64,000 nt of DNA from Halobacterium sp. DL1 (GTDB lineage Archaea > Halobacteriota > Halobacteria > Halobacteriales > Halobacteriaceae). Shown here one piece after another: positions 2,647 to 64,000 of the stretch. Below the pieces are notes generated by a model that saw only the letters and a program-made list of their open reading frames with translations, made no database searches and was not told where the DNA came from. The position numbers were made by a program, and so were the translations under genes. The stretch is from assembly GCA_000230955.3 (NCBI GenBank), contig CP007060.1, forward strand, positions 1,736,001 to 1,800,000. The letters run 5' to 3'. The stretch's first letter is position 1. The number at the start of each line of letters is the position of its first letter.

Positions 2647-3188
2647 GGAGTTCGTTTGTCGCTGCCGTTGCTTACCGTTCGGGGGTTAAATAATCGGTGG
2701 ATTCGGGCAGAAGCTTCGCTTTGCCGGGTTCTATCGCACCGGGCCCCCGGGACGCGTGCCGACTGAACCCGATAACTACCAGGTAGGAGTCACGTTCGAG
2801 GACCGCTACTGCGTGGATTCCCACGCGGGTCGGCTGGGCGGACCGTCCGCGACGGGGAGGCCGACAATTCCGGGGCGGTACCCGGCCCGCGCGGAACAGT
2901 GACAGGCCGGTGTCAGCGAGACTCGCCGGTACAATCGGCGGACCAGACCGTCGAATCCCGTCTAAACGTCAGTCATCGCACGTTCTCACGCACCCGCTGG
3001 GCGGTCCTCTCGGCATCCCCCAGGTAGCCGCCCCATCTACCGCGACTCGGGGCCTCCTGGTCGGGAAAGAACGCAGGCGAGAAGAGAACGAACAGCCGCT
3101 GTCGACGAACGCGTGCGGGCACTGCCCCACTACCCCCGTTCGTAGCCGCCCGATCAGACACCGGGCCGGGAGCCAGCGGCGACTCTCG
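2647..3188. other. intergenic region, no gene recognised
   Basis: About 540 bases with no convincing ORF. The frames that exist (for example on the plus strand from 2910) have Arg/Pro/Ser-rich composition typical of shadows in GC-rich DNA. I saw no tRNA-like folding and no repeat unit. The left end holds the HalOD1 promoter. Confidence 0.55.
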
Positions 3189-3365
3189 TCACTCGCTCCA
3201 CGCGAGCGGCGACTCAGACCGACTCTGTGAGTTCGACGCGGCACCGTCGTCGAGCTCAGCGTTCGGCACACAGTCCATACAGTTGTGGACCGAGTCCTGG
3301 TTGTCACCGAACACTCGTGCGAACTGGACTGTCACGTGACTCCCGCAGTTTCTACACTGTGGCAT
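3189..3365 (-). CDS. small zinc-ribbon protein (DUF7563-like)
   Basis: A 58-residue protein starting at ATG 3365 (MPQCRNCGSHVTV). It has a CxxC pair at residues 4-7 and a second in HNCMDC, the signature of a small zinc ribbon. The acidic/Ser-rich tail looks unstructured. Short proteins of this type, beginning MPxCxNCGS and containing ARVFG, are widespread in haloarchaea. I chose 3365 over the in-frame ATG five codons upstream because the zinc knuckle starts there and a TATA-like element lies about 30 nt further up. Function unknown; a nucleic-acid- or protein-binding role is inference. Confidence 0.75.
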   Translation of the reverse strand: MPQCRNCGSHVTVQFARVFGDNQDSVHNCMDCVPNAELDDGAASNSQSRSESPLAWSE

Positions 3366-3725
3366 CGTTGATGTACGCACAGGCCACGGATTTGGTTATA
3401 CACCTCCTTCACCCGGGGCCCACTTCGTCCGGTTACCCGGGAAGCCCGCCCCGTCCCCGCAGCGGCGCTGTGCGTGCCTCTCGGCCGCCGAGTGGTCCCG
3501 TTACCAGCCAGATAACTGAGCGCTGAGGCTATCGACTGTAACCGCGGCTTACCATCTGTGGTCCGCCGAGAGCGCCTCGCCCCGTTCGAACCCGTCGCAG
3601 TCTGTCGGTTCTTTCGAATCAGTCGTGGCCATCGTCCGCGTAGCTGCAGTATTACAATGCGCTCGTCAGGCGTGAGCGTGACCGGTGACGACGCCGGACA
3701 GCGGCGCCCCGTCACCTGATTGACT
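3366..3725. other. divergent intergenic region
   Basis: This region lies between the start of the zinc-ribbon gene and the start of the PRC-barrel-like gene and probably carries both promoters. A plus-strand AT-rich TATTACA occurs near 3651-3657, about 70 nt before the ATG at 3726. No ORF with plausible composition is present. Confidence 0.5.
3391..3402 (-). promoter_or_regulatory. TATA element of the zinc-ribbon gene
   Basis: On the minus strand TGTATAACCAAA lies about 26-37 nt before the ATG at 3365. It is a weaker match (TAACCAA) to the TAACAAA-type element found upstream of several other genes in this part of the window. Confidence 0.45.
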
Positions 3726-3962
3726 ATGGTACGCGCGTTCAACGCCGACGACAAGGGGAAGAAAGTGATGACGAACGACGGCGACAGCGTCGGAACCGTC
3801 CAGGAGGTCGAGGAGGACACCGCGCACGTCCAGCCGGACAGCGACCTGTCGACGAGCATCCGCCAGCGCCTGGGGTGGGCGAAGGACGACAAGGAGATGT
3901 TCGCGCTCGACAACTCCCACGTGCGCTCGTTCACCGACGACGAGGTGTATCTGAAGGACTGA
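3726..3962 (+). CDS. PRC-barrel-like small protein
   Basis: A 78-residue acidic protein. The sequence MVRAFNADDKGKKVMTNDGD followed by SVGTVQEVEEDTAHVQPD matches the small beta-barrel (PRC-barrel-like) proteins common in haloarchaea, in which 'GKKV' and 'G..VGTV' mark the first strands. The downstream LRWTDD-type segment appears as RLGWAKDDKEMF. I start at ATG 3726; an in-frame TTG two codons earlier is unlikely. It is convergent with the TraB-like gene, with only 7 bases between stops. The cellular role of these proteins is not known. Confidence 0.75.
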   Translation: MVRAFNADDKGKKVMTNDGDSVGTVQEVEEDTAHVQPDSDLSTSIRQRLGWAKDDKEMFALDNSHVRSFTDDEVYLKD

Positions 3963-3969
3963 GTCCGCC

Positions 3970-4731
3970 TCAGGCGCTCCCGGCGCCGCGAACCGCAGCC
4001 TCGATGCCGTCGAGGTGGCCGTAGCCGACGACGGCGACGACCGACGACTCTTTTCGCATCGCGGCGAGCCGACGCCCCATGAACCGTTCCCGGGTCGCGT
4101 CGAGAATGCGGGTCGCTTTCGGCGGGTCGAACGCGCGCAGCAGCGTGCTGCTGCGCTGGAGGTGCGATCGCTCGTGCGCGGCCTGCTCTGTGGGCGACGC
4201 TTCGGGGGTGCAGTCGTACGTGCGCGTCCGCTCGAACCCGCTGCCGAGCCACCGGTCCGAAACTCCCGCATGGCGGAGACAGCCGAGCGCGGTGTGGGTG
4301 ACGAACCGCCCGAAACCGTACACCGCGCGGGCGGCCGTCTCGAGGTTCGGGTCGGCCGCCCGCAGCTCCGAGAAGAGGGCGCCGACCGAGTGCCGACCGG
4401 GGACGTCGATGCCCGCGACCTCGTCGGCCGTCGTCGCGGCGATAGCGCCGGCCATCTCGCCGCCTTCTTCGCCGCCCGCGGCGGCGTACTCCTCGAACAT
4501 CCCCACCAGAACGTCCGGCAGTTCGAGCGCGAGCGTGTCGGGGTCGAGTTCGGCTGCGACGGTTCGCGCGCGATAGACACTGGAGGGGTGGTCGTGTGCG
4601 ACGCCGACGACGACCACAGGTTCGTCGCCGCCCTCGCCGGGGATAACCCGGACGTACTCCTGTTCTAGCCGGGGGTCGTTTTCGAAGACTTCCCGGAGCC
4701 GTCTGTGGGTTTCGGACTGTTCGCCCGTCAC
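3970..4731 (-). CDS. TraB/PrgY-like protein
   Basis: A 253-residue protein of the TraB family (also called Tiki/PrgY-like). The conserved N-terminal block is VVVVGVAHDHPSSVYRARTVAAEL (residues about 40-62), followed by LALELPD, which carries the conserved Glu. The C-terminal conserved block VVAVVGYGHLDGI holds the family's GxHLxG-type motif. No C-terminal membrane segments are seen, so it is a short, soluble member, shorter than archaeal TraB proteins with a membrane domain. Family members are thought to be metal-dependent proteases or regulators of signalling peptides; that activity here is inference. The gene is divergent from the small heat-shock gene. Confidence 0.75.
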   Translation of the reverse strand: MTGEQSETHRRLREVFENDPRLEQEYVRVIPGEGGDEPVVVVGVAHDHPSSVYRARTVAAELDPDTLALELPDVLVGMFEEYAAAGGEEGGEMAGAIAATTADEVAGIDVPGRHSVGALFSELRAADPNLETAARAVYGFGRFVTHTALGCLRHAGVSDRWLGSGFERTRTYDCTPEASPTEQAAHERSHLQRSSTLLRAFDPPKATRILDATRERFMGRRLAAMRKESSVVAVVGYGHLDGIEAAVRGAGSA

Positions 4732-4795
4732 TGTCGTTCGACCGTCGTAGGGACCATCTTACCGTTGGTACAGGCCGAGTCTACTTACGTTGTGC

Positions 4796-4819
4796 GCGTC
4801 CTAACAGCGTCCTAACAAA
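4796..4819 (+). promoter_or_regulatory. tandem 11-bp repeat and TAACAAA element before hsp20
   Basis: The 11-mer GCGTCCTAACA is repeated perfectly head to tail at 4796-4806 and 4807-4817. The second copy runs into AAG, giving TAACAAA at 4813-4819, 32 nt before the ATG at 4845. This spacing suits a TATA-type core element. The upstream copy could be a second recognition site or an operator. Confidence 0.5.
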
Positions 4820-4844
4820 GCTCGCTGGCCCCGAATCGACGACG

Positions 4845-5267
4845 ATGTCCAGAAACAGCCCGTTCGGCGACTTCGAGCGCATCGTCGACGAGATGCAGAA
4901 GCGACTCGACGACTCCGGCGGCGGTGGCCAGCGAGGAACCCAGCCCAGCCTCGACGTGGTGGAGTACGACGAGGAGTTCGTCGTCAGTGTCGACCTCCCC
5001 GGCCACGAGACCGACGACGTGGAGGTCAAGCTCGTCGGACGAACGCTCACCGTGGAGACCGAGCGGTCACGCGAGGAGAGAGTCGAGGAGGACGACGGCC
5101 AGTTCATCCGCCAGGAGCGCTCCCGGAGCACCTCGAGCCAGCAGGTGGAGTTCCCGGCGAGCGTGCGGGGTAGCGACGCCGCCGCGACGATGCAGAACGG
5201 CGTGCTCACCGTTACGGTGCCGAAGACAGACACCGAACAGGACAGCACCAGGGTCGACATCGAGTGA
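4845..5267 (+). CDS. small heat-shock protein, Hsp20/alpha-crystallin family
   Basis: A 140-residue ATP-independent chaperone that holds unfolding proteins in soluble complexes. The alpha-crystallin domain spans about residues 33-135: it begins PSLDVVEYDEEFVVSVDLPGH, continues through DDVEVKLVGRTLTVETE and ends in the diagnostic GVLTVTVPK. The N-terminal arm (FGDFERIVDEMQKRL) and Gly-rich linker are typical. The C-terminal IxI-type anchor is weak. Its promoter region carries a tandem 11-bp repeat. It is transcribed alone, and the next gene has its own promoter element. Confidence 0.9.
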   Translation: MSRNSPFGDFERIVDEMQKRLDDSGGGGQRGTQPSLDVVEYDEEFVVSVDLPGHETDDVEVKLVGRTLTVETERSREERVEEDDGQFIRQERSRSTSSQQVEFPASVRGSDAAATMQNGVLTVTVPKTDTEQDSTRVDIE

Positions 5268-5342
5268 GACCGGAGAGAGCCACCGAGCGCTTCTACCGGC
5301 AGAAATCGAGGGTTCAGGCCGGGCTTACTCGACGGAATCGCT

Positions 5343-5352
5343 CCATAACAAA
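5343..5352 (+). promoter_or_regulatory. TAACAAA-type promoter element
   Basis: CCATAACAAA with TAACAAA at 5346-5352, 38 nt before the ATG at 5384. It has the same core and similar spacing as the elements at 4813, 14042, 15057 and 15390. Confidence 0.45.
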
Positions 5353-5383
5353 CCCGCTTGGCTAGCATCGTTCTACCATCACT

Positions 5384-6826
5384 ATGAACCGCCGGACGGT
5401 CCTCTCCAGCATCGGCACCGCCGCACTCGTCGCCGTCGCCGGTTGTGGCGGTTCTCAGGACCAGCAGTCGACGACGGGGGACGGACAGCCCGACTCGGAC
5501 GGGTCGGGCGGTCCACCGTCGCAACCACCGGGGAACGAACAGTACCCGCGGTCGCTCGCCGAGGAGTTCGGCTTCGACGAGGTCGTGAACTTCGGCGAGA
5601 TGGGCGCCGACCAGACGGGGAACCGACCCGCGGACGACCTGTTCAAGGAGCATCTGGTGGACAACCGACTGCTCTACCTGCCGCCCGGCCGCTACCGCGT
5701 CACCGACACGCTGATGTTCGGCGGCGGTGGCAGCGACCGCCTCGGCATTGTGGGTGAGAACGCGACCATCGTCCCACCGGACGGGTTCCAGGGCGTCATG
5801 TTCGGCTTCGGCTACCCGTCGACGCTCTCGGAGTTGCTGGTGGAAGGACTCACGTTCGACTGCACCGCGAAGAACACGGGTGTCCGCCCCTTCTTCGTGA
5901 GCGCCGACGACCAGATCGTCGCGAAGAACCTCACGGTCCGCGGGGAGATCGACGTCAGACAGGACGTCCTCCGGTTCGACGTGACGAGCAAGTCGGGCCA
6001 GGCGCTCGTCAGGGACGTCAACCTGCCCGACGGCGGCGTCCCGGGGATGGGTGTCACCGGCATGGAGGTCGGCGACAAGAACCACGGCGACATCAGGTTC
6101 GTGGACTGCCACGTCGCCGGCTTCCCGGACAACGGCCTCTACGCGGACCCGCCGGAAGGGCGAGTAGAGGTGCTCGGCGGAACGTTCCTCAACAACGGCA
6201 TCGCGGGCGTGCGCATCGAGACAGCGAACGAGAGCGTCGTCCGCGGCGTGCACGTCCGCTGCGACGACGCCTCGGGCGCCGGCGAGAACATGCGGGGCAT
6301 CCGTCTCCGGAGCGGCAAGTCGTTGCTCGTCGAGGACTGCCTGGTGGAGATGCTCGACGTCACGACGAGCGACGGCGCGGTGACGTTCTCCTCGGAGCTC
6401 GGCTCCGCGACGGTCCGCAACTGCCAGATCAAGGTCGACGCCGACAAGGTCAACGCCGTCCGCATCAAGGAGCCGATGGGGGAGGGCGCCGAACGGGGGC
6501 CGTTCCGCTGTGAGAACGTGGTCATCACCGGGTCGGCTGCCGGCGGCGAGGCCATCCAGGCGGCGAACCGCAACGGCTGCAAGTTCGACAGCGTCTGCGT
6601 CCACCAGACTGGCGAGAACCGGGACGGTTTGGTCGCGGACAACGTCGTCGGGGAACTCCAGAACGCGTACATCTCCGTCACGGGCGACCCGATCTCCGCG
6701 AAGGACTCCGTCATCACCCGGACGAACGTCAACATGAACTCGCGGCCGGGGAAGACCAGCGCGGACATCGACCGCTACTGCAACGCCGCCGAGACCACCG
6801 GGGACCCCCACCCGAACGAGGAGTAA
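5384..6826 (+). CDS. beta-helix lipoprotein (Tat/lipobox)
   Basis: A 480-residue exported lipoprotein. The N-terminus MNRRTVLSSIG with VAVAGCGG is a twin-arginine signal ending in a lipobox, with Cys21 as the lipid-modified residue. Residues about 22-50 form a Gly/Ser/Asp tether. The rest is a right-handed parallel beta-helix of the pectate-lyase-like superfamily, opened by NFGEMGADQTGNRPADDLF, the family's usual entry motif. The stretch MRGIRLRSGKSLLVEDCLV followed by EMLDV aligns with RGIRMRYPGNFVIENCYVVYLDV of the protein at 1-1819, so the two are paralogues. A surface polysaccharide-modifying or -binding role fits the neighbouring sugar operon, but no catalytic residues are assigned. Confidence 0.85.
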   Translation: MNRRTVLSSIGTAALVAVAGCGGSQDQQSTTGDGQPDSDGSGGPPSQPPGNEQYPRSLAEEFGFDEVVNFGEMGADQTGNRPADDLFKEHLVDNRLLYLPPGRYRVTDTLMFGGGGSDRLGIVGENATIVPPDGFQGVMFGFGYPSTLSELLVEGLTFDCTAKNTGVRPFFVSADDQIVAKNLTVRGEIDVRQDVLRFDVTSKSGQALVRDVNLPDGGVPGMGVTGMEVGDKNHGDIRFVDCHVAGFPDNGLYADPPEGRVEVLGGTFLNNGIAGVRIETANESVVRGVHVRCDDASGAGENMRGIRLRSGKSLLVEDCLVEMLDVTTSDGAVTFSSELGSATVRNCQIKVDADKVNAVRIKEPMGEGAERGPFRCENVVITGSAAGGEAIQAANRNGCKFDSVCVHQTGENRDGLVADNVVGELQNAYISVTGDPISAKDSVITRTNVNMNSRPGKTSADIDRYCNAAETTGDPHPNEE

Positions 6827-6900
6827 CCCACTCCGTACTCGGGCTGTGGACGAAACCCTGTAATCGCCATCAGGCGAGGTCTAACGCCTCGCAAGCGCGT

Positions 6901-6911
6901 CTATAACAATG
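6901..6911 (+). promoter_or_regulatory. promoter element for the polysaccharide operon
   Basis: CTATAACAATG with TAACAAT at 6904-6910, upstream of the operon starting at 7056. It resembles the TAACAAA elements nearby, but the distance to the first large gene is about 150 nt, so the transcript would have a leader. That leader contains a 33-codon ORF. Confidence 0.4.
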
Positions 6912-6957
6912 AGACGTTCGCGGGATAAACCGACAACCGCCACCGGCGGTGTCGACA

Positions 6958-7059
6958 ATGTCTCCACGAACCAAACCTATCCGAACCGCCCGGCCGAACC
7001 GACCCGAGAGCCGCGCATCGAGCGCTGAACGTCGCCACGTGGGAGGAGGGGAACGATGA
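6958..7059 (+). CDS. possible 33-aa leader ORF
   Basis: An ATG at 6958 opens a 33-codon Arg/Pro/Ser-rich frame whose TGA overlaps the ATG of the acetyltransferase gene in an ATGA (7056-7059). The start-stop overlap is like those between the downstream genes and would allow translational coupling. The composition is not convincingly protein-like, and a strong GGAGGAGG ribosome-binding site within the ORF (about 7041-7048) could serve the next gene by itself. Confidence 0.2.
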   Translation: MSPRTKPIRTARPNRPESRASSAERRHVGGGER

Positions 7060-7631
7060 CTGACGCCGCATTCGGTCCCGAAGCCGACGTCCACCCAGAC
7101 GCGACGCTCGGCGAACGAACGGACGACGAGCCGACCATCGGTGCGGAGCCGACCATCCGCAGGGGAACCGTCGTCTACGCCGACGTAGAAATCGGCGACC
7201 GGTTCACCACCGGTCACGACGCCCTGGTCCGCGAGGACACCACCATCGGCGACGACGTGCTCGTCGGTACGCAGGCAGTCATCGACGGCGCCTGCACCAT
7301 CGGCGACGGGACGCGCCTCCAGACGGGCGTCTACCTCCCCGCGAACACGACTGTCGGCGACCGCGTGTTCTTCGGACCGCACGCCGTGCTCACGAACGAC
7401 CCGTACCCGCTCCGCACGGCGACAGAGCTCGTGGGTCCGACCATCGAGGACGACGCTTCCATCGGCGCGAACGCGACGATCCTCCCAGGCGTCACTGTCG
7501 GCGAGGGCGCGTTCGTGGCCGCGAACGCCGTCGTCACCGAGGACGTCCCACCGGAGACGCTGGCGGTCGGCTCGCCGGCCGTCCACGAACCGCTGCCGGA
7601 GGAGCTCGAAGGGGGGAACGCGAGCCGATGA
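7056..7631 (+). CDS. hexapeptide-repeat N-acetyltransferase (WbpD/WlbB-like)
   Basis: A 191-residue left-handed beta-helix acyltransferase. Imperfect [LIV]GxxxX repeats run through the whole length (IGDRFTTG, IGDDVLVG, VGDRVFFGPH, IGANATILPG, VGEGAFVAANA) with the usual terminal block AVGSPAV. The His in FFGPHAVLTNDPYP is the likely catalytic base. In the WbpD/WlbB family the enzyme acetylates the 3-amino group of a UDP-2-acetamido-3-amino uronic acid using acetyl-CoA. The directly following aminotransferase, oxidoreductase and dehydrogenase make up the rest of that pathway. A GGAGGAGG sequence 7 nt upstream supports this start. Confidence 0.85.
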   Translation: MTDAAFGPEADVHPDATLGERTDDEPTIGAEPTIRRGTVVYADVEIGDRFTTGHDALVREDTTIGDDVLVGTQAVIDGACTIGDGTRLQTGVYLPANTTVGDRVFFGPHAVLTNDPYPLRTATELVGPTIEDDASIGANATILPGVTVGEGAFVAANAVVTEDVPPETLAVGSPAVHEPLPEELEGGNASR

Positions 7632-8749
7632 TTCCGATAGCCGCCCCCGACGTCGGTGCCGCCGAGCGCGAGCGCGTCCTCGAAGTGCTCGAGGACGGCC
7701 AGCTCGCCGACGGCCCCGTCGTGCGCGAGTTCGAGGACGAGTTCGCCGACTTCTGCGGCGCCGAGGAGGCCGTCGCGACGACGAACGGCACCACTGCCCT
7801 CCACGCGACCCTGGAGGCACTCGGCGTCGGCCCCGGCGACACCGTGGTGACGACGCCGTTCTCGTTCATTGCGAGCGCGAACGCCATCCGTCTCGCGGGC
7901 GCCGAACCTGTGTTCGCTGACGTCGAACCGGAGACGCTGACGCTCGACCCCGAGACCGTCAAGGACGTCGTCTGTCGCCGCGACGACGTCGCCGCGATTC
8001 TCGCGGTCCACCTCTACGGGATGCCCGCCGAGATGCGACAACTCAGGGACATCGCCGACGACCACGGCCTCGCGCTCGTCGAGGACGCCGCGCAGGCCCA
8101 CGGCGCCGAGTACCGCGGGGAACCCGTCGGCACGCTCGGCGACGCGGCGTGTTTCTCCTTCTACCCGACGAAGAACATGACCTCGGGCGAAGGCGGGATG
8201 GTGACGACGGACCACTCGGCGCTCGCCGACCGCGTCCGACGGTTCTGTGACCACGGCCGCACGTCGGGGTACGACCACGCCGACGTCGGCCACAACTTCC
8301 GCATGACGAGCCTCTGTGGCGCCATCGGGCGCGCACAGCTCCGGAAGCTCGCGGAGTACAACGTCGCCCGGCGCGGCAACGCCGCCTACCTCAGCGACCG
8401 CCTCGAGGACGCCAGCGTGGAGACGCCGGCCGAACCACGGAACCGGCGCTCGGTCTACCACCAGTACACCGTGCGCTCGGACGACCGCGAGGGGCTGAAG
8501 GCCCACCTCGCCGACGCCGGCGTCCAGACCGGCGTCTACTACCCGACACCGATCCACCAGCAGGGGGCGTACGCAGACGTTCGCGCGGATATGCCGGTCG
8601 CAGAGCGAGCAGCCGACCGCGTACTCTCCTTGCCAGTCCACCCCGCGCTCTCCGTCCAGGACCTCGACGACATCGCCGACGCCGTTGAATCGTTCGACGC
8701 CCAACCGACTGGCGCCAACGTCGCCGAAACAGGTGTGATGGACTCGTGA
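7628..8749 (+). CDS. DegT/DnrJ-type sugar aminotransferase (WbpE/WlbC-like)
   Basis: A 373-residue PLP-dependent aminotransferase that adds an amino group to a keto nucleotide sugar. The PLP lysine is Lys182 in FSFYPTKNMTSGEGGMV. Other family marks are the N-terminal VATTNGTTALHA, LVEDAAQAHGAEY, and the C-terminal VQTGVYYPTPIHQQ with LSLPVHPALS. Its start overlaps the acetyltransferase stop by 4 bases. In the inferred pathway it aminates C3 of UDP-2-acetamido-3-keto-hexuronate, with glutamate as likely donor. The exact substrate cannot be read from the sequence. Confidence 0.9.
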   Translation: MIPIAAPDVGAAERERVLEVLEDGQLADGPVVREFEDEFADFCGAEEAVATTNGTTALHATLEALGVGPGDTVVTTPFSFIASANAIRLAGAEPVFADVEPETLTLDPETVKDVVCRRDDVAAILAVHLYGMPAEMRQLRDIADDHGLALVEDAAQAHGAEYRGEPVGTLGDAACFSFYPTKNMTSGEGGMVTTDHSALADRVRRFCDHGRTSGYDHADVGHNFRMTSLCGAIGRAQLRKLAEYNVARRGNAAYLSDRLEDASVETPAEPRNRRSVYHQYTVRSDDREGLKAHLADAGVQTGVYYPTPIHQQGAYADVRADMPVAERAADRVLSLPVHPALSVQDLDDIADAVESFDAQPTGANVAETGVMDS

Positions 8750-9720
8750 GCGGCACGCAACTCCGCGCTGGCGTCATCGGCGTCGGGAGTATGGGCCGCA
8801 ACCACGCGCGGGTCTACCAGGAGCTCTCGGACACCAAGCTCGTCGGCGTCGCCGACGCCGACCGCGCGGCCGCAATCAGGGTCGCGACGGAGTACGGGAC
8901 GTCCGCGCTGGACACCGACGTGCTCCTCGACCGCGTGGACGTCGTCTCCATCGCGGTGCCGACACCGGTGCACGCGACGCTCGTCGAGGACTGCATCGAC
9001 GCCGGCGTCCACGCGCTCGTCGAGAAGCCGTTCGTCGACGACCCGGCACGCGGCCGGGAACTCGCGGCGGCCGCGCGGGCCGCCGGGGTCACCCTCCAGG
9101 TCGGCCACATCGAGCGGTTCAACCCGGCGGTGCGCACGCTCGCGGACATCGTCCCAAACCTCGACGTGATGGCGGTGACGGCCGAGCGACTCGGCCCGCC
9201 GCTCGACCGCGAGATGGAGTCGAACGTCGTCTTCGACCTGATGATCCACGACATCGACATCGTCCGGTCGATGCTCGGCGACGACCCGGTGTCCGTCACC
9301 GCCTCGGGAACCGCCGAGGGCGACTACGCCACGGCGTGCTGCTCGTTCGACGACGGCGCGGTGGCGTCGCTGACCGCTAGCCGCGTCACCCAGCAGAAGG
9401 TCCGTCGACTGGCGGTGACGGCCCGGGAGTGCCGGGTCACCGTCGACTACACCGACCAGTCAGTCGAGATCCACCGGAGTTCGACGCCGGAGTACGTCGC
9501 CTCCGACGGCGACATCCGCCACCGCACGGAGAGCGTCGTCGAGCGCCCGCTGGTCGAGAACGGAGAACCCCTGAAACACGAACTGTCGGCGTTCGCCGAG
9601 GCCGTCAGGGAGGGGACCGAGCCGGTCGTGACCGCCGAGGACGGCGTTCGTGCGGTCGAACTGGCCCAGCGAATCAACGAACTCATCGTCACCCGCAGCG
9701 CCACGGAGGTGCCGCAGTGA
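8746..9720 (+). CDS. Gfo/Idh/MocA oxidoreductase (WbpB/WlbA-like)
   Basis: A 324-residue NAD(P)-dependent sugar oxidoreductase. The N-terminal Rossmann fold starts AGVIGVGSMGRNHARVY, the catalytic EKP motif contains Lys94 (LVEKPFVDD), and VGHIERFNPAVRTL is characteristic of the WbpB/WlbA subgroup that oxidises C3 of UDP-N-acetyl-hexuronic acids. The GTG start lies in a GTGA overlap with the aminotransferase stop. It would supply the 3-keto substrate for the aminotransferase upstream. Confidence 0.88.
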   Translation: MSGTQLRAGVIGVGSMGRNHARVYQELSDTKLVGVADADRAAAIRVATEYGTSALDTDVLLDRVDVVSIAVPTPVHATLVEDCIDAGVHALVEKPFVDDPARGRELAAAARAAGVTLQVGHIERFNPAVRTLADIVPNLDVMAVTAERLGPPLDREMESNVVFDLMIHDIDIVRSMLGDDPVSVTASGTAEGDYATACCSFDDGAVASLTASRVTQQKVRRLAVTARECRVTVDYTDQSVEIHRSSTPEYVASDGDIRHRTESVVERPLVENGEPLKHELSAFAEAVREGTEPVVTAEDGVRAVELAQRINELIVTRSATEVPQ

Positions 9721-11102
9721 GCCGCTCGCTGTACGGGTCGGCGGCGGCGCCGTCCACGCAGCGTGAGTGGTTCCGCACCGGCGAGGTGCCGGTGGCCGTC
9801 TACGGCCTCGGCAAGATGGGGCTGCCGCTGGCGGCCGTCTACGCGGAGACGTCCGGCAACGTGACCGGCGTCGACATCGACGAGTCGGTCGTCGAGGCGG
9901 TCAACGCCGGGCGGTCCCACGTGGAGCGCGAACCGGGGCTGCAGGACCTCGTCGCGGACCTCACGAGCCGGGGCGCGCTCTCCGCCACGACGGACGGCGT
10001 CGAGGCGGCACGCGACGCGTCCATCCACGTCGTCATCGTGCCGACGCTCGTCGACGACAACAACGAACCCGACCTCTCGGCGGTCACCTCGGTCGTCTCG
10101 GACGTGGCCAGCGGGCTCTCGCCGGGCGACCTGGTCGTCGTCGAATCGACGCTCCCGCCGCGAACGAGCAGGGACGTCCTGCGGCCGCTGCTCGAGGACC
10201 GCAGCACCGTGGCGAGCGAAGAGTTCGGCCTCGCGTTCTGCCCGGAGCGGACGGCCAGCGGCCGCGCGCTCGGGGACATCCGCGGCGCCCACCCGAAGGT
10301 CGTCGGCGGTGACGACGACGAGAGCACGCGGGTCGCGGAACTCGTCTACAACGAGATCGTCGACAACGACGTGATTCCGGTGTCGGACACCACCACCGCG
10401 GAGGCCGTGAAGGTGTTCGAGGGGCTCTACCGGGACGCCAACATCGCGCTCGCCAACGAACTCGCGAAGTTCACCGACGAACTCGACATCGACGTGCGTG
10501 AGGCCATCGACGCGGCGAACACGCAGCCGTTCTGTGACCTCCACACGCCCGGCCCCGGCGTCGGCGGCCACTGCATCCCCTACTACCCGTACTTCGTGTT
10601 GAACTGGCTGCACGGCGACGCGCCGCTCGTTGCGACGGCGCGCCGCGTGAACGACGGGATGCCCGGGTTCGTTGTAGACACCGTCTCGGAGGGGCTGGCC
10701 GCCGCCCACGAGGCCGAGGAGCAGAACGACGTCTACGCGGCGGACGGGGGCGCCGTCGAGGACGCGACGGTGGCCGTTCTCGGACTGACCTACCGGGCGG
10801 GCGTCCAGGAGACCCGCGCGAGTCCGGGCGTCGACATCTGCGAAGACCTCGACAATCGCGGCGCCGAGGTCCTCGCCGCGGACCCGCTCGTCGACGCCGA
10901 AGGGGTGCCCGCAGAGCACGTCGAACTCGACGAACTCGCGGACCGCGACCTCGACGCCGCCGTGCTCGCCACCGCCCACGCGGAGTTCGACACCGTCGAC
11001 TGGACGACGTTCGACCCGATGGTCGTGGTGGACGGGCACGACGCGCTCCACCTCTCCGGCACGGACCACCGGGTGTACACAGTCGGGAGGGGGTGGCAGT
11101 GA
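9717..11102 (+). CDS. UDP-GlcNAc/ManNAc-type 6-dehydrogenase (WbpA/WecC-like)
   Basis: A 461-residue nucleotide-sugar dehydrogenase of the UDPGDH superfamily, which oxidises C6 of a UDP-HexNAc to the uronic acid in two NAD steps. It shows the NAD-binding VAVYGLGKMGLPLA, VESTLPPRTS, FCPERTASG, and the catalytic cysteine in PGVGGHCIPYYPYF. The C-terminal UDP-binding domain includes LGLTYRAGVQETRASP. The start is the GTG at 9717 in a GTGA overlap; the frame is open further upstream but inside the preceding gene. It would carry out the first step of the diacetamido-uronate pathway. Confidence 0.9.
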   Translation: MSRSLYGSAAAPSTQREWFRTGEVPVAVYGLGKMGLPLAAVYAETSGNVTGVDIDESVVEAVNAGRSHVEREPGLQDLVADLTSRGALSATTDGVEAARDASIHVVIVPTLVDDNNEPDLSAVTSVVSDVASGLSPGDLVVVESTLPPRTSRDVLRPLLEDRSTVASEEFGLAFCPERTASGRALGDIRGAHPKVVGGDDDESTRVAELVYNEIVDNDVIPVSDTTTAEAVKVFEGLYRDANIALANELAKFTDELDIDVREAIDAANTQPFCDLHTPGPGVGGHCIPYYPYFVLNWLHGDAPLVATARRVNDGMPGFVVDTVSEGLAAAHEAEEQNDVYAADGGAVEDATVAVLGLTYRAGVQETRASPGVDICEDLDNRGAEVLAADPLVDAEGVPAEHVELDELADRDLDAAVLATAHAEFDTVDWTTFDPMVVVDGHDALHLSGTDHRVYTVGRGWQ

Positions 11103-11890
11103 ACGACGGGTTCACGATGGCCGGCTACGCCGACCTCCTCGACGCCATCGCGGAAGCCGGCTACGACACCCTCACCGTCCGAGAGTACCTCACGGCGGGG
11201 CGACTCCCGGAACGGTTCGTCGTGCTCCGCCACGACGTCGACCGGAAGCCCGACAACGCCGAGCGCATGGCGGAACTGGAGGCCGAGTACGGCGTCCGGG
11301 CGACCTACTACTACCGGGCGAGGACGTTCTCCCCGGAGCGCGTGCAGCGCGTCGAGGCGCTCGGCCACGAGGTGGGCTACCAGTACGAGGACTACGCCGA
11401 CGCGGGCGGCGACACCGAACTCGCCCACGCGCTGTTCCGGAACAATCTCCGCGTGTTCCGCCGCGCCTGCGACGTCGACACCGTCTGTATGCACGACACG
11501 CCGCTGTCGCCCCACGACAACCAGGAACTGTGGGCGGGCGCGGAGGCGCCCGGCTTCGCGGACTACGACCTCGTGGGGGACGCCTACCTCTCGGTGGACT
11601 TCGTCGACGTCCCGTACTTCTCGGACGTCGGACGCACCTGGACGGACGTCCCCACTGGCGTCGAGCGGCGCGCGGTCGGCTGCCACGACAAACCGGTCTC
11701 CGCTGACACCACGTCGGCCCTCACTCGGCTCCTCCACGACCGCGAACTGGACCGGGCGTGCCTGCTCGTCCACCCCAACCGGTGGGTGGACTCACTGCCC
11801 GAACTGGTCGTCGAACGCTCGAAGGAACGCGCCGCGAACCTCGTGAAACGCGGCGTCGGACTGTTCGAGGACGACACAGCAACATCATGA
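11099..11890 (+). CDS. NodB-fold (polysaccharide deacetylase-like) protein
   Basis: A protein of about 263 residues with the carbohydrate-esterase-4/NodB barrel. The first metal motif is FVVLRHDVDRKPDNAERM, where Asp residues stand in the TFDDG-like position. The second region reads LGHEVGYQYEDY, in which the second His often seen in this branch is Gln. CMHDTPLSPHDNQELW follows. The GTG at 11099 overlaps the dehydrogenase stop as GTGA; an earlier GTG (11093) and a later ATG (11117) are alternatives. Deacetylation of the exported or lipid-linked glycan is the family expectation; the altered metal site makes activity uncertain. Confidence 0.75.
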   Translation: MNDGFTMAGYADLLDAIAEAGYDTLTVREYLTAGRLPERFVVLRHDVDRKPDNAERMAELEAEYGVRATYYYRARTFSPERVQRVEALGHEVGYQYEDYADAGGDTELAHALFRNNLRVFRRACDVDTVCMHDTPLSPHDNQELWAGAEAPGFADYDLVGDAYLSVDFVDVPYFSDVGRTWTDVPTGVERRAVGCHDKPVSADTTSALTRLLHDRELDRACLLVHPNRWVDSLPELVVERSKERAANLVKRGVGLFEDDTATS

Positions 11891-12021
11891 CCACGAACGC
11901 CTACGCACTGGACGAACGAACGGACGCATCGGGGGAAACGAACGGGGGGTCGCCGGGGGGCTGGCCCGACGGCAGCGCGCCGGGCTCGCGGCGCCGGGCA
12001 GACGACGGGATGGTCGACTGA
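11887..12021 (+). CDS. 44-aa bridging ORF
   Basis: An ATG at 11887 overlaps the upstream stop (ATGA), and the ORF ends with a TGA whose last base is the first base of the next ATG (12021). The product, MTTNAYALDERTDASGETNG followed by a Gly/Pro/Arg-rich tail, matches nothing I recognise. The double start/stop overlap is the same arrangement that joins the other genes of the operon, so it is probably translated, either as a microprotein or as a coupling element. Confidence 0.45.
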   Translation: MTTNAYALDERTDASGETNGGSPGGWPDGSAPGSRRRADDGMVD

Positions 12022-13052
12022 TGCACGCGCTCGTCGACGTCACCCACCCGGCGCACGTCCACCTCTTCCGGAACGCCATCACGGCCCTCGAGGAGCGCGG
12101 CCACGAGGTCAGCGTCGCGTCCCGGGAGAAGGACGTGACGACGGAACTGCTCGACGCCTACGGCATCGAGCACACGCCGCTCACGGGCAAGCAGACAGGG
12201 CGCTTCGCGCTCCCCCGGGAGTGGGTGAGCCGCGAACTGCGGCTGTTCCGCTTCATGCGAGCCACCTCGCCGGACGTCGTGCTCAGTCACCTCAATCCGG
12301 CCGCCGCACACGTCTCGCGCGCGCTGGGCGTCCCGAACGTCGTCTTCCACGACACGGAGGTCGCGGGCCTCGTCGAGCGGTTCACGGCGCCGTTCGCGGA
12401 AGTCGTCTGCACTCCCGCAGAGTTCGACCGCGAGGTGCCCGGCCGGCAGTTGCGCTACGAGGGGTTCCACGAACTCGCCTACCTCCACCCCGCGCGCTTC
12501 GAAGCCGACCCCCAACCGCTGTACGAGGCCGGTATCGACCCCTACGAGCCGTTCTCGGTCGTCCGCCTCGTCGCCATGGACGCCCACCACGACCACGGCT
12601 CTGGAGGCTTCTCGCGAGAGCAGGTCGCGGACCTCGTGGAGGGCCTCTCCGAGCACGGCGACGTCTACGTCACGGGCGAGAACGACCTCCCCGACGAACT
12701 GGGCGCCTACGAAGCGCCGACGCCGCCGGAGGCGATGCTCGACCTGCTCGCGTTCGCGGACCTCTACGTGGGCGACTCCGGAACAATGGCGACGGAGGCC
12801 GGGCTACTCGCCACGCCCGCGGTGCGCTACAACCCGCTGGACAGCGAGATGAGCGTCTTCGAGGAACTCGCTGAGTACGGCCTCGTCACCTCCACGATGG
12901 ACGCCGACGAGGCCGTCGAGCGGGCCCTGACGCTGGCCGCGGACCCGGACGCGGGCGCCCGGTGGCGCCGCCGCCGGCGCGAGTTGCTCGCGGAGAAGGT
13001 CGACGTCACCGCGCTCGCCGTCGAACTCGCAGAGGAGGTCGGCGGACCGTGA
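12021..13052 (+). CDS. DUF354 family, GT-B-like protein
   Basis: A 343-residue member of DUF354, archaeal/bacterial proteins with a GT-B-like fold related to UDP-GlcNAc 2-epimerase and glycosyltransferases. It starts MHALVDVTHPAHVHLFRN, the family's diagnostic opening, and has VFHDTEVAG in the first domain. The second domain contains LYVGDSGTMATEAGLLATPAVRYN, a typical nucleotide-sugar-binding loop. It lies between two NodB-like genes with overlapping starts and stops, so a glycosyltransferase or epimerase step in the same glycan is likely. Substrate unknown. Confidence 0.8.
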   Translation: MHALVDVTHPAHVHLFRNAITALEERGHEVSVASREKDVTTELLDAYGIEHTPLTGKQTGRFALPREWVSRELRLFRFMRATSPDVVLSHLNPAAAHVSRALGVPNVVFHDTEVAGLVERFTAPFAEVVCTPAEFDREVPGRQLRYEGFHELAYLHPARFEADPQPLYEAGIDPYEPFSVVRLVAMDAHHDHGSGGFSREQVADLVEGLSEHGDVYVTGENDLPDELGAYEAPTPPEAMLDLLAFADLYVGDSGTMATEAGLLATPAVRYNPLDSEMSVFEELAEYGLVTSTMDADEAVERALTLAADPDAGARWRRRRRELLAEKVDVTALAVELAEEVGGP

Positions 13053-14014
13053 TTGGGAACCGCGAGAACTACGCGGAAGCTCCCGAGCAGGTGGGCCTCG
13101 ACGGCGAGGGCGAGCGCCCGATTCCAGACGGCCACGAGTTCGCGCTCCTGCTCACCCACGACGTCGACCGGCCGTACAAGACCTACCAGTACCTCTACTA
13201 CGCGCTCACCGACCCGGAGAACCGCTGGAACCACCTCTCGGGGCTGCTCTCGGCGGAGAACCCGTACTGGCAGTTCGACCGCGTGACGTCCATCGAGGAC
13301 GACCTCGGCGTGCGGTCGGCGTTCTACCTGCTCGACGAGCAGCGCCTCCGGGACCGGTCCGTCCGCGAGTGGGTCTCGAAGACCGGCTGGCAGCTGTTCG
13401 GCGGCCGGTACTCGCTGGACGACCCCGCCATTCGGGAACTGGTCCAGACCCTCGACGACGGCGGCTGGGAGGTCGGACTCCACGGCTCCTTCGAGTCCTT
13501 CGACGACCCCGACCGCCTGGCCGCCGAGAAGGGCGCCGTCGAAGCGGTGCTCGGAGACAGCGTGGTCGGCGGCCGACAGCACTACCTCAACCTGGACGCG
13601 CCCGTGACCTGGCGCATCCAGCGCGACCTCGGCCTCCGCTACGACGCCAGCCTCGGCTCCAGCGACGACTACGGCTTCCAGCACGGCTACGGCCTCCAGC
13701 GACCCTTCGACGACGAGTTCGTGGTGTTCCCGCTGACGATCATGGAGCAGGCTATCCCCGACCCCGGCGACTCCTTCGACGCCGCGTGGACGGCCTGCGA
13801 GGAGACCCTCCAGGAGGCACGCGAGAACGACGCCGTGATGACGATTCTCTGGCACCCGCGGCACTTCAGCGAGCGGGACTTCCCGGGCTACGGACGACTC
13901 TACCGCCGCCTCGTCGAGCGCGCGCTCGACCTCGGCGCGTGGGTCGGGTCGCCGGGCGAGTTCTACGAGCGAGCGGCCCTCGACGAGCGGCCGGTCGGGA
14001 CCGGCGCCGACTGA
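13049..14014 (+). CDS. NodB-fold polysaccharide deacetylase-like protein
   Basis: A 321-residue protein of the long NodB-like group found next to DUF354 genes. The metal-binding start is FALLLTHDVDRPYKTYQYL, the region GGWEVGLHGSFESFDD holds the second His motif, and TILWHPRHFSERDFPGY is a likely third conserved block with His residues. The GTG start at 13049 overlaps the DUF354 stop as GTGA. It differs from the gene at 11099 in length and motifs, so they are not simple duplicates. It ends the overlapping part of the operon. Confidence 0.78.
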   Translation: MIGNRENYAEAPEQVGLDGEGERPIPDGHEFALLLTHDVDRPYKTYQYLYYALTDPENRWNHLSGLLSAENPYWQFDRVTSIEDDLGVRSAFYLLDEQRLRDRSVREWVSKTGWQLFGGRYSLDDPAIRELVQTLDDGGWEVGLHGSFESFDDPDRLAAEKGAVEAVLGDSVVGGRQHYLNLDAPVTWRIQRDLGLRYDASLGSSDDYGFQHGYGLQRPFDDEFVVFPLTIMEQAIPDPGDSFDAAWTACEETLQEARENDAVMTILWHPRHFSERDFPGYGRLYRRLVERALDLGAWVGSPGEFYERAALDERPVGTGAD

Positions 14015-14037
14015 CCCACCGGGGGGTCGGTAGCCGC

Positions 14038-14049
14038 TCTATAACAAAC
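14038..14049 (+). promoter_or_regulatory. TAACAAA-type promoter element
   Basis: TCTATAACAAAC with TAACAAA at 14042-14048, 34 nt before the ATG at 14076. It indicates that the chimeric gene has its own promoter rather than depending only on the upstream operon. Confidence 0.5.
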
Positions 14050-14075
14050 GGTTCGCGGCCGCCCCTCACCAGTAC

Positions 14076-14768
14076 ATGGAGATCGAGCAGCTCTCACGCG
14101 AGGAGTGGGGAGAGGCGCTTCCGTCGTCCGGATTCGAGGTGTTCCACACGCCCGCGGCGCTCGGCGTTCTCGAGGAGCACACAGCCGGCGAACTCAAACT
14201 GTACGGCGGATTCAAGGGCGACCAGCCTGTCGGGCTGTTTCCCGTCGTCGTGCAGGACCGCGCGGTCGGACGGGCCATCCTCTCGCCGCCGCCCGGGTTC
14301 GCCATCCCGCGACTCGGCCCCATCGTGATGCCGACCAGTCCGAAGCGCCGCAAGCAAGAGCAGGTCAACGGCCGGTTCGCCGAGCAGGTGCTCGAGGAAC
14401 TCGACGTCGACGCCTCGATGACGCTGTTCCGGACCGTCTGCCCGACCGCCTACCCCGACCCGCGCCCGTACGTCTGGTCGAACCTCTCGCTGGACACCTC
14501 CTTCACCTACCACCTCGACGTCGAGGAGGACACCGACGAGATGCTGAAGTCGTTCAGCAAGAGCCTGCGCCGGGAGGTCCGGGACGGGAAGGACCTCGAC
14601 GTCGAGCTCTCCGTGACCCACGTCTCCCGGGCGCTGAAGTCGCTGCGCGAGCGGGACCTCGTCGAACTGCTCGTGCCCGAGGAGCGGCGCAAGGGCCGCG
14701 TCTACGGCATCACGGAGCAGGGACAGGAAGCGTGGGAGCTAATCCAGGCGAAGGACCTCAGCAAGTGA
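14076..14768 (+). CDS. chimera: FemAB/GNAT N-terminal half fused to winged-HTH C-terminal half
   Basis: A 230-residue protein of two unrelated parts. Residues 1 to about 175 match the N-terminal half of the haloarchaeal FemAB/GNAT proteins found in exopolysaccharide clusters (EVFHTPAALGVLEEHTAGEL, PPPGFAIPRLGPIVMPTSPK, FSKSLRREVRDGKD). The second acyltransferase half is missing. From about residue 178 the sequence changes to the recognition helix and wing of a winged HTH (VTHVSRALKSLRERDLVELL, then RRKGRVYGITEQGQEAW), lacking that family's first helices. The result looks like an in-frame deletion fusion. It has a normal start and promoter, so it may be expressed, but neither half is complete. 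A sequencing or assembly deletion is the main alternative. Confidence 0.7.
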   Translation: MEIEQLSREEWGEALPSSGFEVFHTPAALGVLEEHTAGELKLYGGFKGDQPVGLFPVVVQDRAVGRAILSPPPGFAIPRLGPIVMPTSPKRRKQEQVNGRFAEQVLEELDVDASMTLFRTVCPTAYPDPRPYVWSNLSLDTSFTYHLDVEEDTDEMLKSFSKSLRREVRDGKDLDVELSVTHVSRALKSLRERDLVELLVPEERRKGRVYGITEQGQEAWELIQAKDLSK

Positions 14769-15054
14769 GGTCCCGAAACGGGGGTGGGGGAGAAAGTGGC
14801 TCCGGTTCGGGGGTGTGGGGAGCAGCCGTTCCGAGGGGCGTGGTTCGTCTGCGCCCCGTCTGTCTGCTCGACCGCTACCTCCTTTGTTAACCACCCCGTG
14901 AGGCGTGCTGCCGCGGACTGACGACTGTTTTCCACACTCCGCCCGGGCGGCCTCCTTCCTGTGAACGGCGACTTCGAACGGGGAGCGACGCCAGGGGCGG
15001 CAGGGTGAGCCCCACGGGCGACTCCAGCCTACATTTGACCGTGGCTAGTCGAGT
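14769..15054. other. intergenic region, no gene recognised
   Basis: No ORF with haloarchaeal composition and no repeat or RNA-like fold that I can defend. On the minus strand, GGTTAACAAAGG occurs near 14879-14890, another match to the TAACAAA core, but no gene start lies at the expected distance in that direction. Confidence 0.5.
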
Positions 15055-43160: not shown

Positions 43161-44096
43161 TCAGTAGTCCAGCTCCCCGGTCGCGGCGTTGAGCGCGAGC
43201 ACGAGGCCGGCGCCGACCACGCCGGAGACGAGCAGCGGCACCGCAGCGGCGACGGTCCACTCGGGCGTCGCGTCGGCGATGCGGATGGCCGGCGCGCGGA
43301 GCGCACCCGCCATCAGCGCCACGAGGAACGTCAGCGTCGCTGCGCGGTAGGTGTCCAGCGCCCACTGGACGACCCGCGCGAACGACAGGATGCCCACGAG
43401 CGCACCGAACATGAACACGACGAGCGTCGTCAGCGGGTCGACCGCCTGCCCGAACTCGCCCGCGAACAGGGTGTCCGTCGTGGCGCTCACCGCTCCCGTC
43501 ATCGTCTCGTACTTCCCGACGGTCAGCAGGATGAGCGACCCCGAGACGCCCGGCAGCACCATCGCACAGATGGCGAACGCCCCGACGACGAAGATGACGA
43601 GCAGGCCGCCCGGGAGCGCGTCGCCCTGCGCCTGCCCGCTGAGCACGAACGCGAGGGTGAACCCGAGGACGCCCGCGAGCACTCGGCCCGGCGTGTCCGC
43701 GGACACCTCGTCGAACAGCACGACGACCGAAGCCGCGATGAGACCGAAGAAGAACGCGAACGTGAGCCCGGGGTAGTCGTGGTAGGCGACCTCCACGAGG
43801 TTCGCCACCGTGACGACGGCGCTCAGCACGCCGATTCCGAGAATCGCGAGGAACGGAACCTCCATCTCCGAGAGCGTCCCCCCGAACTCCGCGCGGACGC
43901 CGTCGTTCCCGAGGTCCGGCACGAGCGCAAGGAGCCCCACGGCCTCCCGCGGGTCGAGCGCCGCGAGCGCGCCGACGAGGCGCTCGTAGATGCCCGTGAT
44001 GAGCGCTATCGTCCCGCCGGAGACGCCCGGCACCGCGTCCGCCGCGCCCATCGCCGCGCCCTTCAGGTAGACGGCGGCCCAGTCACTAGCCGCCAT
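43161..44096 (-). CDS. DUF368 polytopic membrane protein
   Basis: A 311-residue DUF368 protein with about eight spans. The diagnostic N-terminus is YLKGAAMGAADAVPGVSGGT followed by IALITGIYERLVGAL. The second PGVSGSLILLTVGKYE repeat marks the internal symmetry of the family. DUF368 proteins have been implicated in undecaprenyl/polyprenyl phosphate recycling across membranes. Its 1-base overlap with aglB suggests a similar lipid-carrier role in N-glycosylation (inference). Confidence 0.88.
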   Translation of the reverse strand: MAASDWAAVYLKGAAMGAADAVPGVSGGTIALITGIYERLVGALAALDPREAVGLLALVPDLGNDGVRAEFGGTLSEMEVPFLAILGIGVLSAVVTVANLVEVAYHDYPGLTFAFFFGLIAASVVVLFDEVSADTPGRVLAGVLGFTLAFVLSGQAQGDALPGGLLVIFVVGAFAICAMVLPGVSGSLILLTVGKYETMTGAVSATTDTLFAGEFGQAVDPLTTLVVFMFGALVGILSFARVVQWALDTYRAATLTFLVALMAGALRAPAIRIADATPEWTVAAAVPLLVSGVVGAGLVLALNAATGELDY

Positions 44097-47000
44097 CAGC
44101 CAGTACGATGGACCAGGAGGCCGGCGACGGCGGGCAGTGCAGCGGCGGTCAGCCCGGCAGTCGTCGGCTGTGAGTCAGCAGGTCCGTCGCCCGTAGCGTC
44201 CGAGGAGCCCTCGGCAGTAATCGACGACGGGTCCGGAGCGCTCACAGACGCGGACGTGTTGTTCTGTGCGCCCTCGGGTTCGTCGACGACGTTCCGCTCG
44301 AGGTCGACGGTCACCGAATCCTCGGACTCGCCGAGCACCTGCGCCTCGGTCACGTCCGCCGTCGCGTTCCAGTTCACGACCGTCAGGCCGTCTTCGGCGG
44401 TCGTGTTCCCCGTCGAGAACTCGTAGGGGCCGGCCGCGCGCACCGAGACGTTCGTGTGGCCGTTCTCCGGCCCGAAGTTCTCGTAGCCCGTCGTCGAGTA
44501 CGGCAGCGTCATCGTGAACTCGCCGTCCGGACCGGTCTCGGCGTGCTGCCTGTAGGTGAACGTCGGGTGAGAGCCGTCCTGACTGCTCGTCATCTGCGTG
44601 AGGTTCAGCTCCACCGTCGCGGTCACCGTCGTGTTCGCGGGCGCGGTGCCGGTCACCTCGGCGCCCTCGACGCGCTCGAACATCTTCACCCACGTCGGCA
44701 TGTAGGCGTAGTTCAGCTCCCCGTTCAGGATGAGGTTCGCCGGCGCCAGGCTGTCGTCGCTCACGCCCACCAGCCGGTACTGTTCGAGCGCCTCGACGTC
44801 CCGGGTCGGGACGTCCTGGAAGCCACCGATCTGTGACGTCGAGTCGTTGGCGACGTACGCCTCGGCGGCGCTCATGTTGGCGAACTGCTGGACGTTCGGC
44901 GTCGAGGAGTCGAAGACGAGCAGTTCCTGTCCGGTCCGGCTGGTACGGGTCTCCCGCCAGTCGAGCACCGTCGGTTGGGCCTGCTTCGCGCTCCCGTGGT
45001 AGCGGTAGAGCCGCACCATCATCGACTCGAAGTACGGCTGGCTCTTCACGAGCGGCGCCTGCTGGAGGTAGCGCGCGCTCTGGATCTGGCCGTTCTCGTA
45101 CTGGGCGTTGTACGCGACCCGGTAGAAGTCGTTACCGCTGAACTCCCGCGGCCCATCGTAGAACACCAGCGGCGCGCCGAACTTCGACTGTCCGGAGCTG
45201 AGGTCCGGACGCGGCGGCATGATCATCTTCCAGTCGACGGCGACGTACTTCGTCTCCGCGTCGTCCTCGTTGATGCCCGCGAGGACATCCGCTGCCTCCG
45301 ACTCGTTCTGGGCGAGCAGGAAGTTCGCGGCCGTGTTCGCGCCCTGCTGGAACGGGTTGGCGTGGGGCACGCGCTGGCCCTCGACGGTGATCCAGTGGCC
45401 GTAGTCCCACCAGGACATCACGCCGTAGGAACCGTCGGGGTAGTCGAAGTCCCCAGTCCGGGAGTACGTCCCGTAGTAGTCCATGGCCTCAGCGTTCGAC
45501 GCGCCGTCGAACTCACCCTCGGTCGGCGTATGCGTCTGCATCCACTCGAGCGCGTCGTCCCACTGGACGACAGCGCCGGGACCGTTCGACGAACCGACAG
45601 TGATCGCAGACCGCAGCGGCACCTGCTGGTTGTTCGCGTTCGTCAGCGTGATCGGCGACGCGCTCCCTCGGACGGAGTCGTTGTTCGTCGCCTCCGCGAG
45701 GGCGGGTGCCGCGACCGGCACCAGCACGAGCAGGACGACCATCACGACCGTGCCGACCTGGTACCAGCTCACGTCCTCGATGGTCGAGGCGGGCCGGTCG
45801 AGGTCGAGCACCGAGAGCACGCTTGCGAGCAGGTACGCGTTCAGCACGACGACCGGCACGACGAGGTAGTAGTTGAACCGCACCTGCGTGAACGCCGCCG
45901 AGGTGATGAACGCGCCCCAGACGACGACCAGCAGCGGCCCAGCGTCGTAGTCGCCGGTCACGGCGATGGCCGCCAGCGTGATGCTGACAATGCCGAGTGC
46001 AGTGAGCTGCCCGCCGATGCCGAAGAGATCGCCGATCCACGCCGGGAAGCCGGGCGCGGCGAACATGAGGAGAACGACCGCGACGCCGACAGCGGCGCCG
46101 GCGAGCCGCTTCAGACTGCCGCTCTCGAGGTGCGGACGCAGCAGGATGATGGCCGCCGCGAGCAGCGCCGTGAAGAACGCGAGCCCGTACTCCAGGAAGA
46201 TGACGCCGAACATCCCCAGACCGTACGCGTTCGTCCGGGAGAGGAACGGCTGGGCTTCGCCGATTGTTCTTTGTGCTGCACCAGAACTAAATCCGATGAA
46301 ACGAAGCAGATTCGACTCCATCATACCCCAGAAGCTCGGTAGAGCAACCGCGGTTACCCCCACACCGACGATGACTATAGCGAACACTGTGACCGGGAAC
46401 GAAGCGCTAGTAAACCCACGTTCGTCCCACTCCCGTGCTAGCCATGCTAGAAAGACGGCGCCCACAGCAACTGCCAGCGAGAACAACGGTTGGAGTAACC
46501 CAAACTCTGTTGCCGAAAAGCTAGTGGTCGAGAGCGTAACCAGCATCAGGAGGGCGGTCGTCGCCATGCTCACCGCGGCGACGATGGCGACGTGCTCCGG
46601 GCTCCGACCGCTGTAGTAGTCGCTGGTCAGCTTCACGAGATAGAAGACGCCGAAGATACCCACGAGGAGGATGCCCGGCGGCCACATCCACATGTAAGCC
46701 GCAGCCGCGGCTCCCGCGAGGATGCTCCAGGCGACGACTCTCCGGAGGCCCGCGATGTCGCGGTCGAGGAACTGTTCGTAGACCGGTTTCTCGCGTTCGG
46801 CGACCCGTAGTGCGACGAGCGTCCCGAGAACGGCGAGTGACTGGAACAGCGGCTCGGCGCCGTTGTGGTCGGCCGCGCCGACGAGGCTGCGCTGGAGGAA
46901 GTAGCCGGGGAGCAGTGCGAGGATGACCGCCGCGAAGACGCCACCGATGCGGCCGCCGAGTTGCTTCCCGATGAAGTAGACCGGGATGGCCAGCAGCGCG

Positions 47001-47401: not shown

Positions 47402-47527
47402 TACCCGTAGGGGCGGCCAGCGCGCGAATAAGCCTTGTGAAGTTTCCGGGCCACCCTATCCACTAAGCTTGGGCAAGCATCGGGACGTTGATCGATTAGA
47501 ACCCCGTCTGGGACCCGACGGTTTAGT

Positions 47528-48583: not shown

Positions 48584-48627
48584 ACAGAGCCAGTGAGACT
48601 TCCAAGACAAAGGTATTCCTCTTCTCC

Positions 48628-49752: not shown

Positions 49753-49791
49753 ACAGACTCCGTTTACTGGGTCGGGCAAAAACCCCGCGGT

Positions 49792-51764: not shown

Positions 51765-51856
51765 GCGTATACCCAGCCACAATTCCGTAAAAAGTGCGTC
51801 GTTCCCATCCGCACAAGGGAAGAGTTTTGAGGAGGGTTCGTTAAACCTCGTTCGGA

Positions 51857-53602: not shown

Positions 53603-53606
53603 AACG

Positions 53607-59693: not shown

Positions 59694-59750
59694 AGTGTCA
59701 CGCCCCTCGGATGGGTGGGTGTGTGGTCCAATCATCGTCCCGTTGTCGAC

Positions 59751-61013: not shown

Positions 61014-61102
61014 GATACTGGTCTTCCCTTAGCCTTACTTGCAAATACCGGTTTCATCCCGGTACCGACGTGTTCAAATACGAAAAATCCCCATGGGGAG
61101 TA

Positions 61103-63879: not shown

Positions 63880-64000
63880 CTACTTGCGGTTCACCCATTC
63901 TTTCACAATGAACACGATCATCACAAGCCCGAGTTTGAAAGCGGGCAAGAACTCCCCGGTAATCTTCGACGTACCCTCCCGCGGCCGGTAGTTGACTGGA
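63880..64000 (-). CDS. GT2 (dolichyl-phosphate sugar synthase-type), C-terminus only
   Basis: The last 39 codons of a gene entering from the right edge: PVNYRPREGTSKITGEFLPA, then FKLGLVMIVFIVKEWVNRK and TAG at 63880-63882. YRPREGTSKI is the characteristic C-terminal motif of GT2 enzymes of the DPM/dolichyl-phosphate-glucose synthase type. The stop is adjacent to the ATG of the SMR-like gene, so synthesis, flipping and use of a lipid-sugar may be encoded consecutively. Confidence 0.7.
   Translation of the reverse strand, partial: PVNYRPREGTSKITGEFLPAFKLGLVMIVFIVKEWVNRK

Follow-up and report, generated by a model that had tools for sequence, protein, structure and literature searches.

Short-repeat deletions in haloarchaea

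Deletions between short direct repeats have already been described in haloarchaea, including Halobacterium (PMC3119063). The cases set out in that report involve direct repeats of 4-20 bp and cores of up to 34 kb, among them a 10,007-bp deletion at an 8-bp repeat in Halobacterium salinarum (PMC3119063, PLoS One 2011). In Haloferax volcanii, deletions attributed to microhomology-mediated end joining were described under CRISPR self-targeting (PMC7521656).

The locus analysed here lies in a window of 64,000 bp of the genome of Halobacterium sp. DL1 and, with a probability of about 95%, reflects a deletion at a short direct repeat that removed about 27.2 kb, probably in the recent past, and fused a femAB-type gene to a winged helix-turn-helix (wHTH) gene, leaving a most likely non-functional product. 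As in the Haloquadratum walsbyi and H. salinarum cases presented in PMC3119063, there is a large deletion, a short direct repeat of which one copy is left, gene truncation, and a repeat that varies slightly where the deletion is absent. Unlike in the cases given in that report, the deletion is inferred here between species, both of its ends lie inside genes, and the frame was kept, giving a fused ORF. The H. volcanii deletions described in PMC7521656 are similar in being haloarchaeal deletions at microhomologies, but they were induced by targeted laboratory breaks. The present case fits repeat-mediated deletion and microhomology end joining alike. Literature searches of one library found no earlier report of this fusion.

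The fused ORF and its parents

The closest relative, a sister species (G012), served as the reference for alignment and deletion size. The features of the locus are as follows.

14029-14045, forward strand: likely promoter, conserved motif GGTAG...ATAAC upstream of femAB, in 7/7 genomes
14076-14768, forward strand: fused ORF of 230 aa, truncated femAB and truncated wHTH gene in frame
14076-14597, forward strand: femAB-type codons 1-174 (335 codons in the intact relative; the DNA alignment to G012 ends at 14606)
14597-14602, forward strand: deletion junction CGACGT, shared by the two parental ends in G012 and left in one copy in the window
14603-14768, forward strand: 3' part of the wHTH gene, V41 of the 95 called residues onwards, including the wHTH stop codon (G012 alignment from 14597 on)

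The initial annotation had proposed an intact ORF with promoter and start, in which the first half of a FemAB protein passes at about residue 178 into a wHTH recognition helix and wing, and this description was borne out. The ORF starts with ATG and encodes 230 aa, and each of its halves has a longer orthologue. Residues 1-174 represent the first half of a FemAB-type protein and residues 178-230 the last part of a small wHTH protein. At the join, purely FemAB sequence runs to L174, either parent can account for D175-V176-E177, and wHTH-only sequence begins at L178. In G012, the N-terminal half of an intact FemAB-type protein (open frame 349 aa; 335 aa as called) shares 92% identity with residues 1-182, and the end of a separate wHTH ORF shares 98% with residues 175-230. 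The recognition helix and wing were assigned by inspection as kept in the C-terminal part, and helices 1-2 as gone. The promoter motif precedes the start in all seven genomes compared. The 99 bases at 13999-14097, comprising the femAB promoter and start, are identical to those of G012, with neighbouring 50-base bins mostly at 82-98%. A second, diverged FemAB-type gene is kept elsewhere in the genome (L002, C1:2174864-2175469; 34% identity, open frame 437 aa).

Six of the 12 other congeneric genomes (G001, G003, G004, G006, G010 and G012) carry the two halves in separate genes on the same strand: the first half of a longer FemAB-type frame (337-349 aa) corresponds to residues 1-181/183, and a second frame, 105-119 aa long, ends in the counterpart of residues 174/175-230. 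The same search gave no femAB match in the remaining six, of which three match the HTH part only and three match nothing. It had been suggested that one deletion joined adjacent femAB and HTH genes; the single deletion and the common polysaccharide cluster stand, but the parents are not neighbours. In all six relatives with both genes, their starts lie some 24.0-27.6 kb apart, namely 27,638 (G012), 27,118 (G004), 26,610 (G010), 24,619 (G006), 24,007 (G003) and 23,962 bp (G001). Both halves occur in one frame only in the window's own genome (1/26 genomes of the family), so the fusion does not constitute a family; the widespread fusion family that the initial annotation had named as its refutation was not found among these genomes, and a real fused family was rejected. 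The best named match was Halobacterium sp. TGN-42-S1 (L003), with 71% identity over residues 1-182.

Taken alone, the two arrangements are as compatible with an insertion as with a deletion, with the compact state being ancestral and the block having been inserted into one gene in the relatives. Against this, both parents are complete genes in six congeneric species, unfused FemAB relatives of 330-339 aa are found at seven loci outside the genus, and in G013, which belongs to another genus, the two halves match separate places about 7.7 kb from each other. Given these full-length relatives, insertion was rejected and is in effect refuted. The direction is that of a deletion, both end genes being whole in the six relatives and truncated in the window.

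Breakpoint and short repeat

Positions 3140-14606 of the window align to G012 at 88% identity, and positions 14597-14902 align at 90%, 27,233 bp further on. The window lacks these 27,233 bp relative to G012, a size measured against a sister species and not a sister strain. At single-base resolution, the join is GACCTCGACGTCGAGGTC in the left parent, GACCTCGACGTCGAGCTC in the window and GCCAACGACGTGGAACTC in the right parent, and all three contain CGACGT; this short direct repeat is found at both ends in G012 and in one copy in the window. The right end reads GACGTCGAC in five other relatives, and the ancestral match may therefore have exceeded 6 bp, with a matching run in the ancestor of possibly up to 9-10 bases. 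A run of at least six identical bases would occur at 0.34% of all femAB/wHTH joins in G012 and at 0.66% of the in-frame ones.

In 50-base bins, identity to the left parent is 86-94% over 14400-14599 and identity to the right parent 90-96% over 14600-14799, where the final bin runs out into the right flank; from the bin at 14800 onwards, indels outside the gene lower the identity. Continued across the join, the two flanks give 33% and 28%. Judging from the longer orthologue of each half and this sharp switch in identity, the join is beyond chance.

The mechanism we infer would have used CGACGT, perhaps extended to up to 10 bp in the ancestor, as the deletion site. The deletion joined codon 174 of the femAB-type gene to codon 40 of the wHTH gene, which in the same surface-polysaccharide cluster lies at the opposite end; the frame was kept by chance, giving an ORF with the promoter and start of femAB and the stop of the wHTH gene. 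The glycosyltransferases, flippase, epimerase, glmM/glmU-type genes and glmS of the cluster were lost as a consequence. The locus shows cleanly, at base resolution, how a chimeric ORF resembling a new domain fusion can arise from a short-repeat deletion, and is a warning that such an ORF should not be annotated as one.

The lost block

Between the breakpoints G012 has 18 whole genes, one further doubtful ORF of 71 aa being left out. In order, they encode a group-1 glycosyltransferase, a 653-aa protein without a Pfam match, a Polysacc_synt flippase, an NAD-dependent epimerase, a 397-aa protein without a match (ATP-grasp-like by eye), a type I phosphodiesterase, a 269-aa protein without a match, a Gfo/Idh oxidoreductase, a DUF1616 protein, a NosD/beta-helix protein, a PKD-repeat protein, a family-2 glycosyltransferase, a phosphohexomutase of the GlmM kind, a GlmU-like nucleotidyltransferase, a DUF7344 protein, a hexapeptide protein, GlmS and a second DUF7344 protein.

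The block was searched for in the window's own genome with DNA queries of 20,000, 4,941 and 2,771 bases, together all but a few bases of it. The 11, 2 and 4 matches were only short or paralogue-like, the longest being 625 bp at 69% and 541 bp at 66% identity, which indicates that the block has not moved; relocation was rejected. These results also bear on the assembly, in which an assembler might have dropped 27 kb of a whole cluster and joined its ends. The absence here of glmS, which is found in 10/13 genomes of the genus, would agree with such an artefact. However, an assembler would normally collapse only a repeat as long as a read or k-mer, and the ends share 6 bp in G012 and at most an inferred 10; the 3.16-Mb assembly consists of two contigs and is 99.81% complete; and the block is absent elsewhere at the identity expected of an orthologue. 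An artefact is thus highly improbable.

The deleted glmS corresponds to G012 C1:141779-143587. The glmS model TIGR01135 scored over its cut-off in ten of the 13 genomes of the genus searched, and in none of the window's genome, G002 and G008; no SIS domain was found in the same three of 13. The TIGR01135 match remaining in these three, of about 100 bits to model positions 1-220, is present in 13/13 genomes and resembles the amidotransferase part of a different enzyme. In G012 itself glmS occurs twice, once in the deleted block and once at C1:198089, in the region beyond AglB that is not alignable between the window's genome and G012. GlmM (C1:2707116) and GlmU (C1:1802962) are kept in the window's genome. 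A NagB-type substitute (PF01182) was found in none of the 13 genomes, the glmS carriers included. It is a speculative and rather unlikely suggestion that, with the last glmS removed by the deletion and GlmM, GlmU and UDP-GlcNAc-type sugar genes kept, the organism imports amino sugars, uses an undescribed GlmS-independent route to glucosamine phosphate, or makes hexosamine-free surface glycans. The locus marks a natural loss of a surface-glycan cluster together with glmS, and the loss of glmS makes the amino-sugar requirement of the species testable.

Domain content of the fused product

Neither domain of the fused product is complete, as had been noted. In the intact G012 protein the GNAT domain PF13480 spans residues 159-303, of which the fusion keeps 159-174, about 90% of the recognised domain being gone. 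The intact parent scores 80.6 bits for PF13480 and 29.6 bits for PF02388; in the fusion the Pfam search gave no PF13480 match, and PF02388 reached 11.4 bits, under its cut-off of 24. The N-terminal 174 residues come from a member of the FemAB / Acetyltransf_6 family (PF02388, PF13480), but the fusion lacks nearly all of the recognised GNAT domain and, at the gathering scores of both models, falls outside that family. The wHTH part has lost residues 1-39 of 95 and begins at residue 40. The intact 95-aa protein matches HVO_A0261_N at 41 bits (cut-off 35) and HTH_5 at 28.5 bits (cut-off 22); the matches in the fusion are at most 15.5 bits, all below cut-off, and the fusion does not qualify as a winged-HTH regulator (HVO_A0261_N / ArsR-like), for which a whole HTH and wing at gathering score are taken as the mark. 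AlphaFold2 gave a mean pLDDT of 45 for the fusion and 55 for the intact FemAB protein, both from shallow alignments (9 and 8 rows), and a profile search of solved structures returned FemX only at an E-value of 0.069.

With about 90% of the GNAT domain and 39 of the 95 wHTH residues gone, a new function is not supported, and the new DNA-binding or dominant-negative protein proposed in the initial annotation is unlikely. On domain content, neither FemAB nor wHTH activity would be expected of the fused product, which is most likely non-functional. The locus may be regarded as a deletion scar, ordinary as a protein and probably recent.

Age of the deletion

The rate of amino-acid change was determined for eight genes, the femAB part and seven genes upstream of it. 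Between the window and G012 the femAB part has a dN of 0.033 and a dS of 0.407 (dN/dS 0.08); of its 173 codons compared, 11 differ non-synonymously and 37 synonymously, and in the wHTH part the corresponding counts are 1 and 12 of 55 codons. The seven upstream genes have dN/dS values of 0.085-0.21. Changes were polarised in the four of the eight genes that had an outgroup sequence; in femAB there are two non-synonymous and four synonymous changes in the lineage of the window vs five and seven in that of G012. Without constraint throughout the lineage, non-synonymous changes in the ORF should number some tens, as estimated from dS/2 and about 390 sites. The small number seen means that either the deletion is recent or the ORF is constrained.

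Constraint would imply that selection maintains a functional chimera made of a FemAB N-terminal part and an incomplete DNA-binding tail. The intact ORF, promoter motif and start and the low amino-acid change rate in both halves are compatible with it, but selection before the deletion explains the low dN/dS, the domain losses described above affect both halves, and among the 26 genomes of the family the chimera exists in this one only; such a protein is very improbable. A recent deletion is the simpler explanation, and on these substitution counts the event is probably recent.

The surviving cluster and its neighbourhood

The upstream part of the cluster survives, with all ORFs open.

7056-14014, forward strand: surviving upstream cluster part, encoding a hexapeptide acyltransferase, a DegT aminotransferase, a Gfo/Idh oxidoreductase, a UDP-sugar dehydrogenase, a deacetylase-like ORF (by eye, without a Pfam match), a DUF354 protein and a polysaccharide deacetylase

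The first four of these, the acyltransferase, DegT aminotransferase, Gfo/Idh oxidoreductase and UDP-sugar dehydrogenase, survive together at 7056-11102. The best match of the Gfo/Idh protein is a UDP-GlcNAc 3-dehydrogenase, under the cut-off, and the set resembles what we take to be a pathway from UDP-GlcNAc to a diamino-uronic sugar.

Further along, positions 47441-64000, and on to about 67002 in window coordinates, are not alignable to G012, with both flanks alignable. This region lies downstream of an AglB-like gene at 44096-47401 (named by eye) and, judging from the alignment pattern, is probably a glycosylation-island replacement near the deletion.
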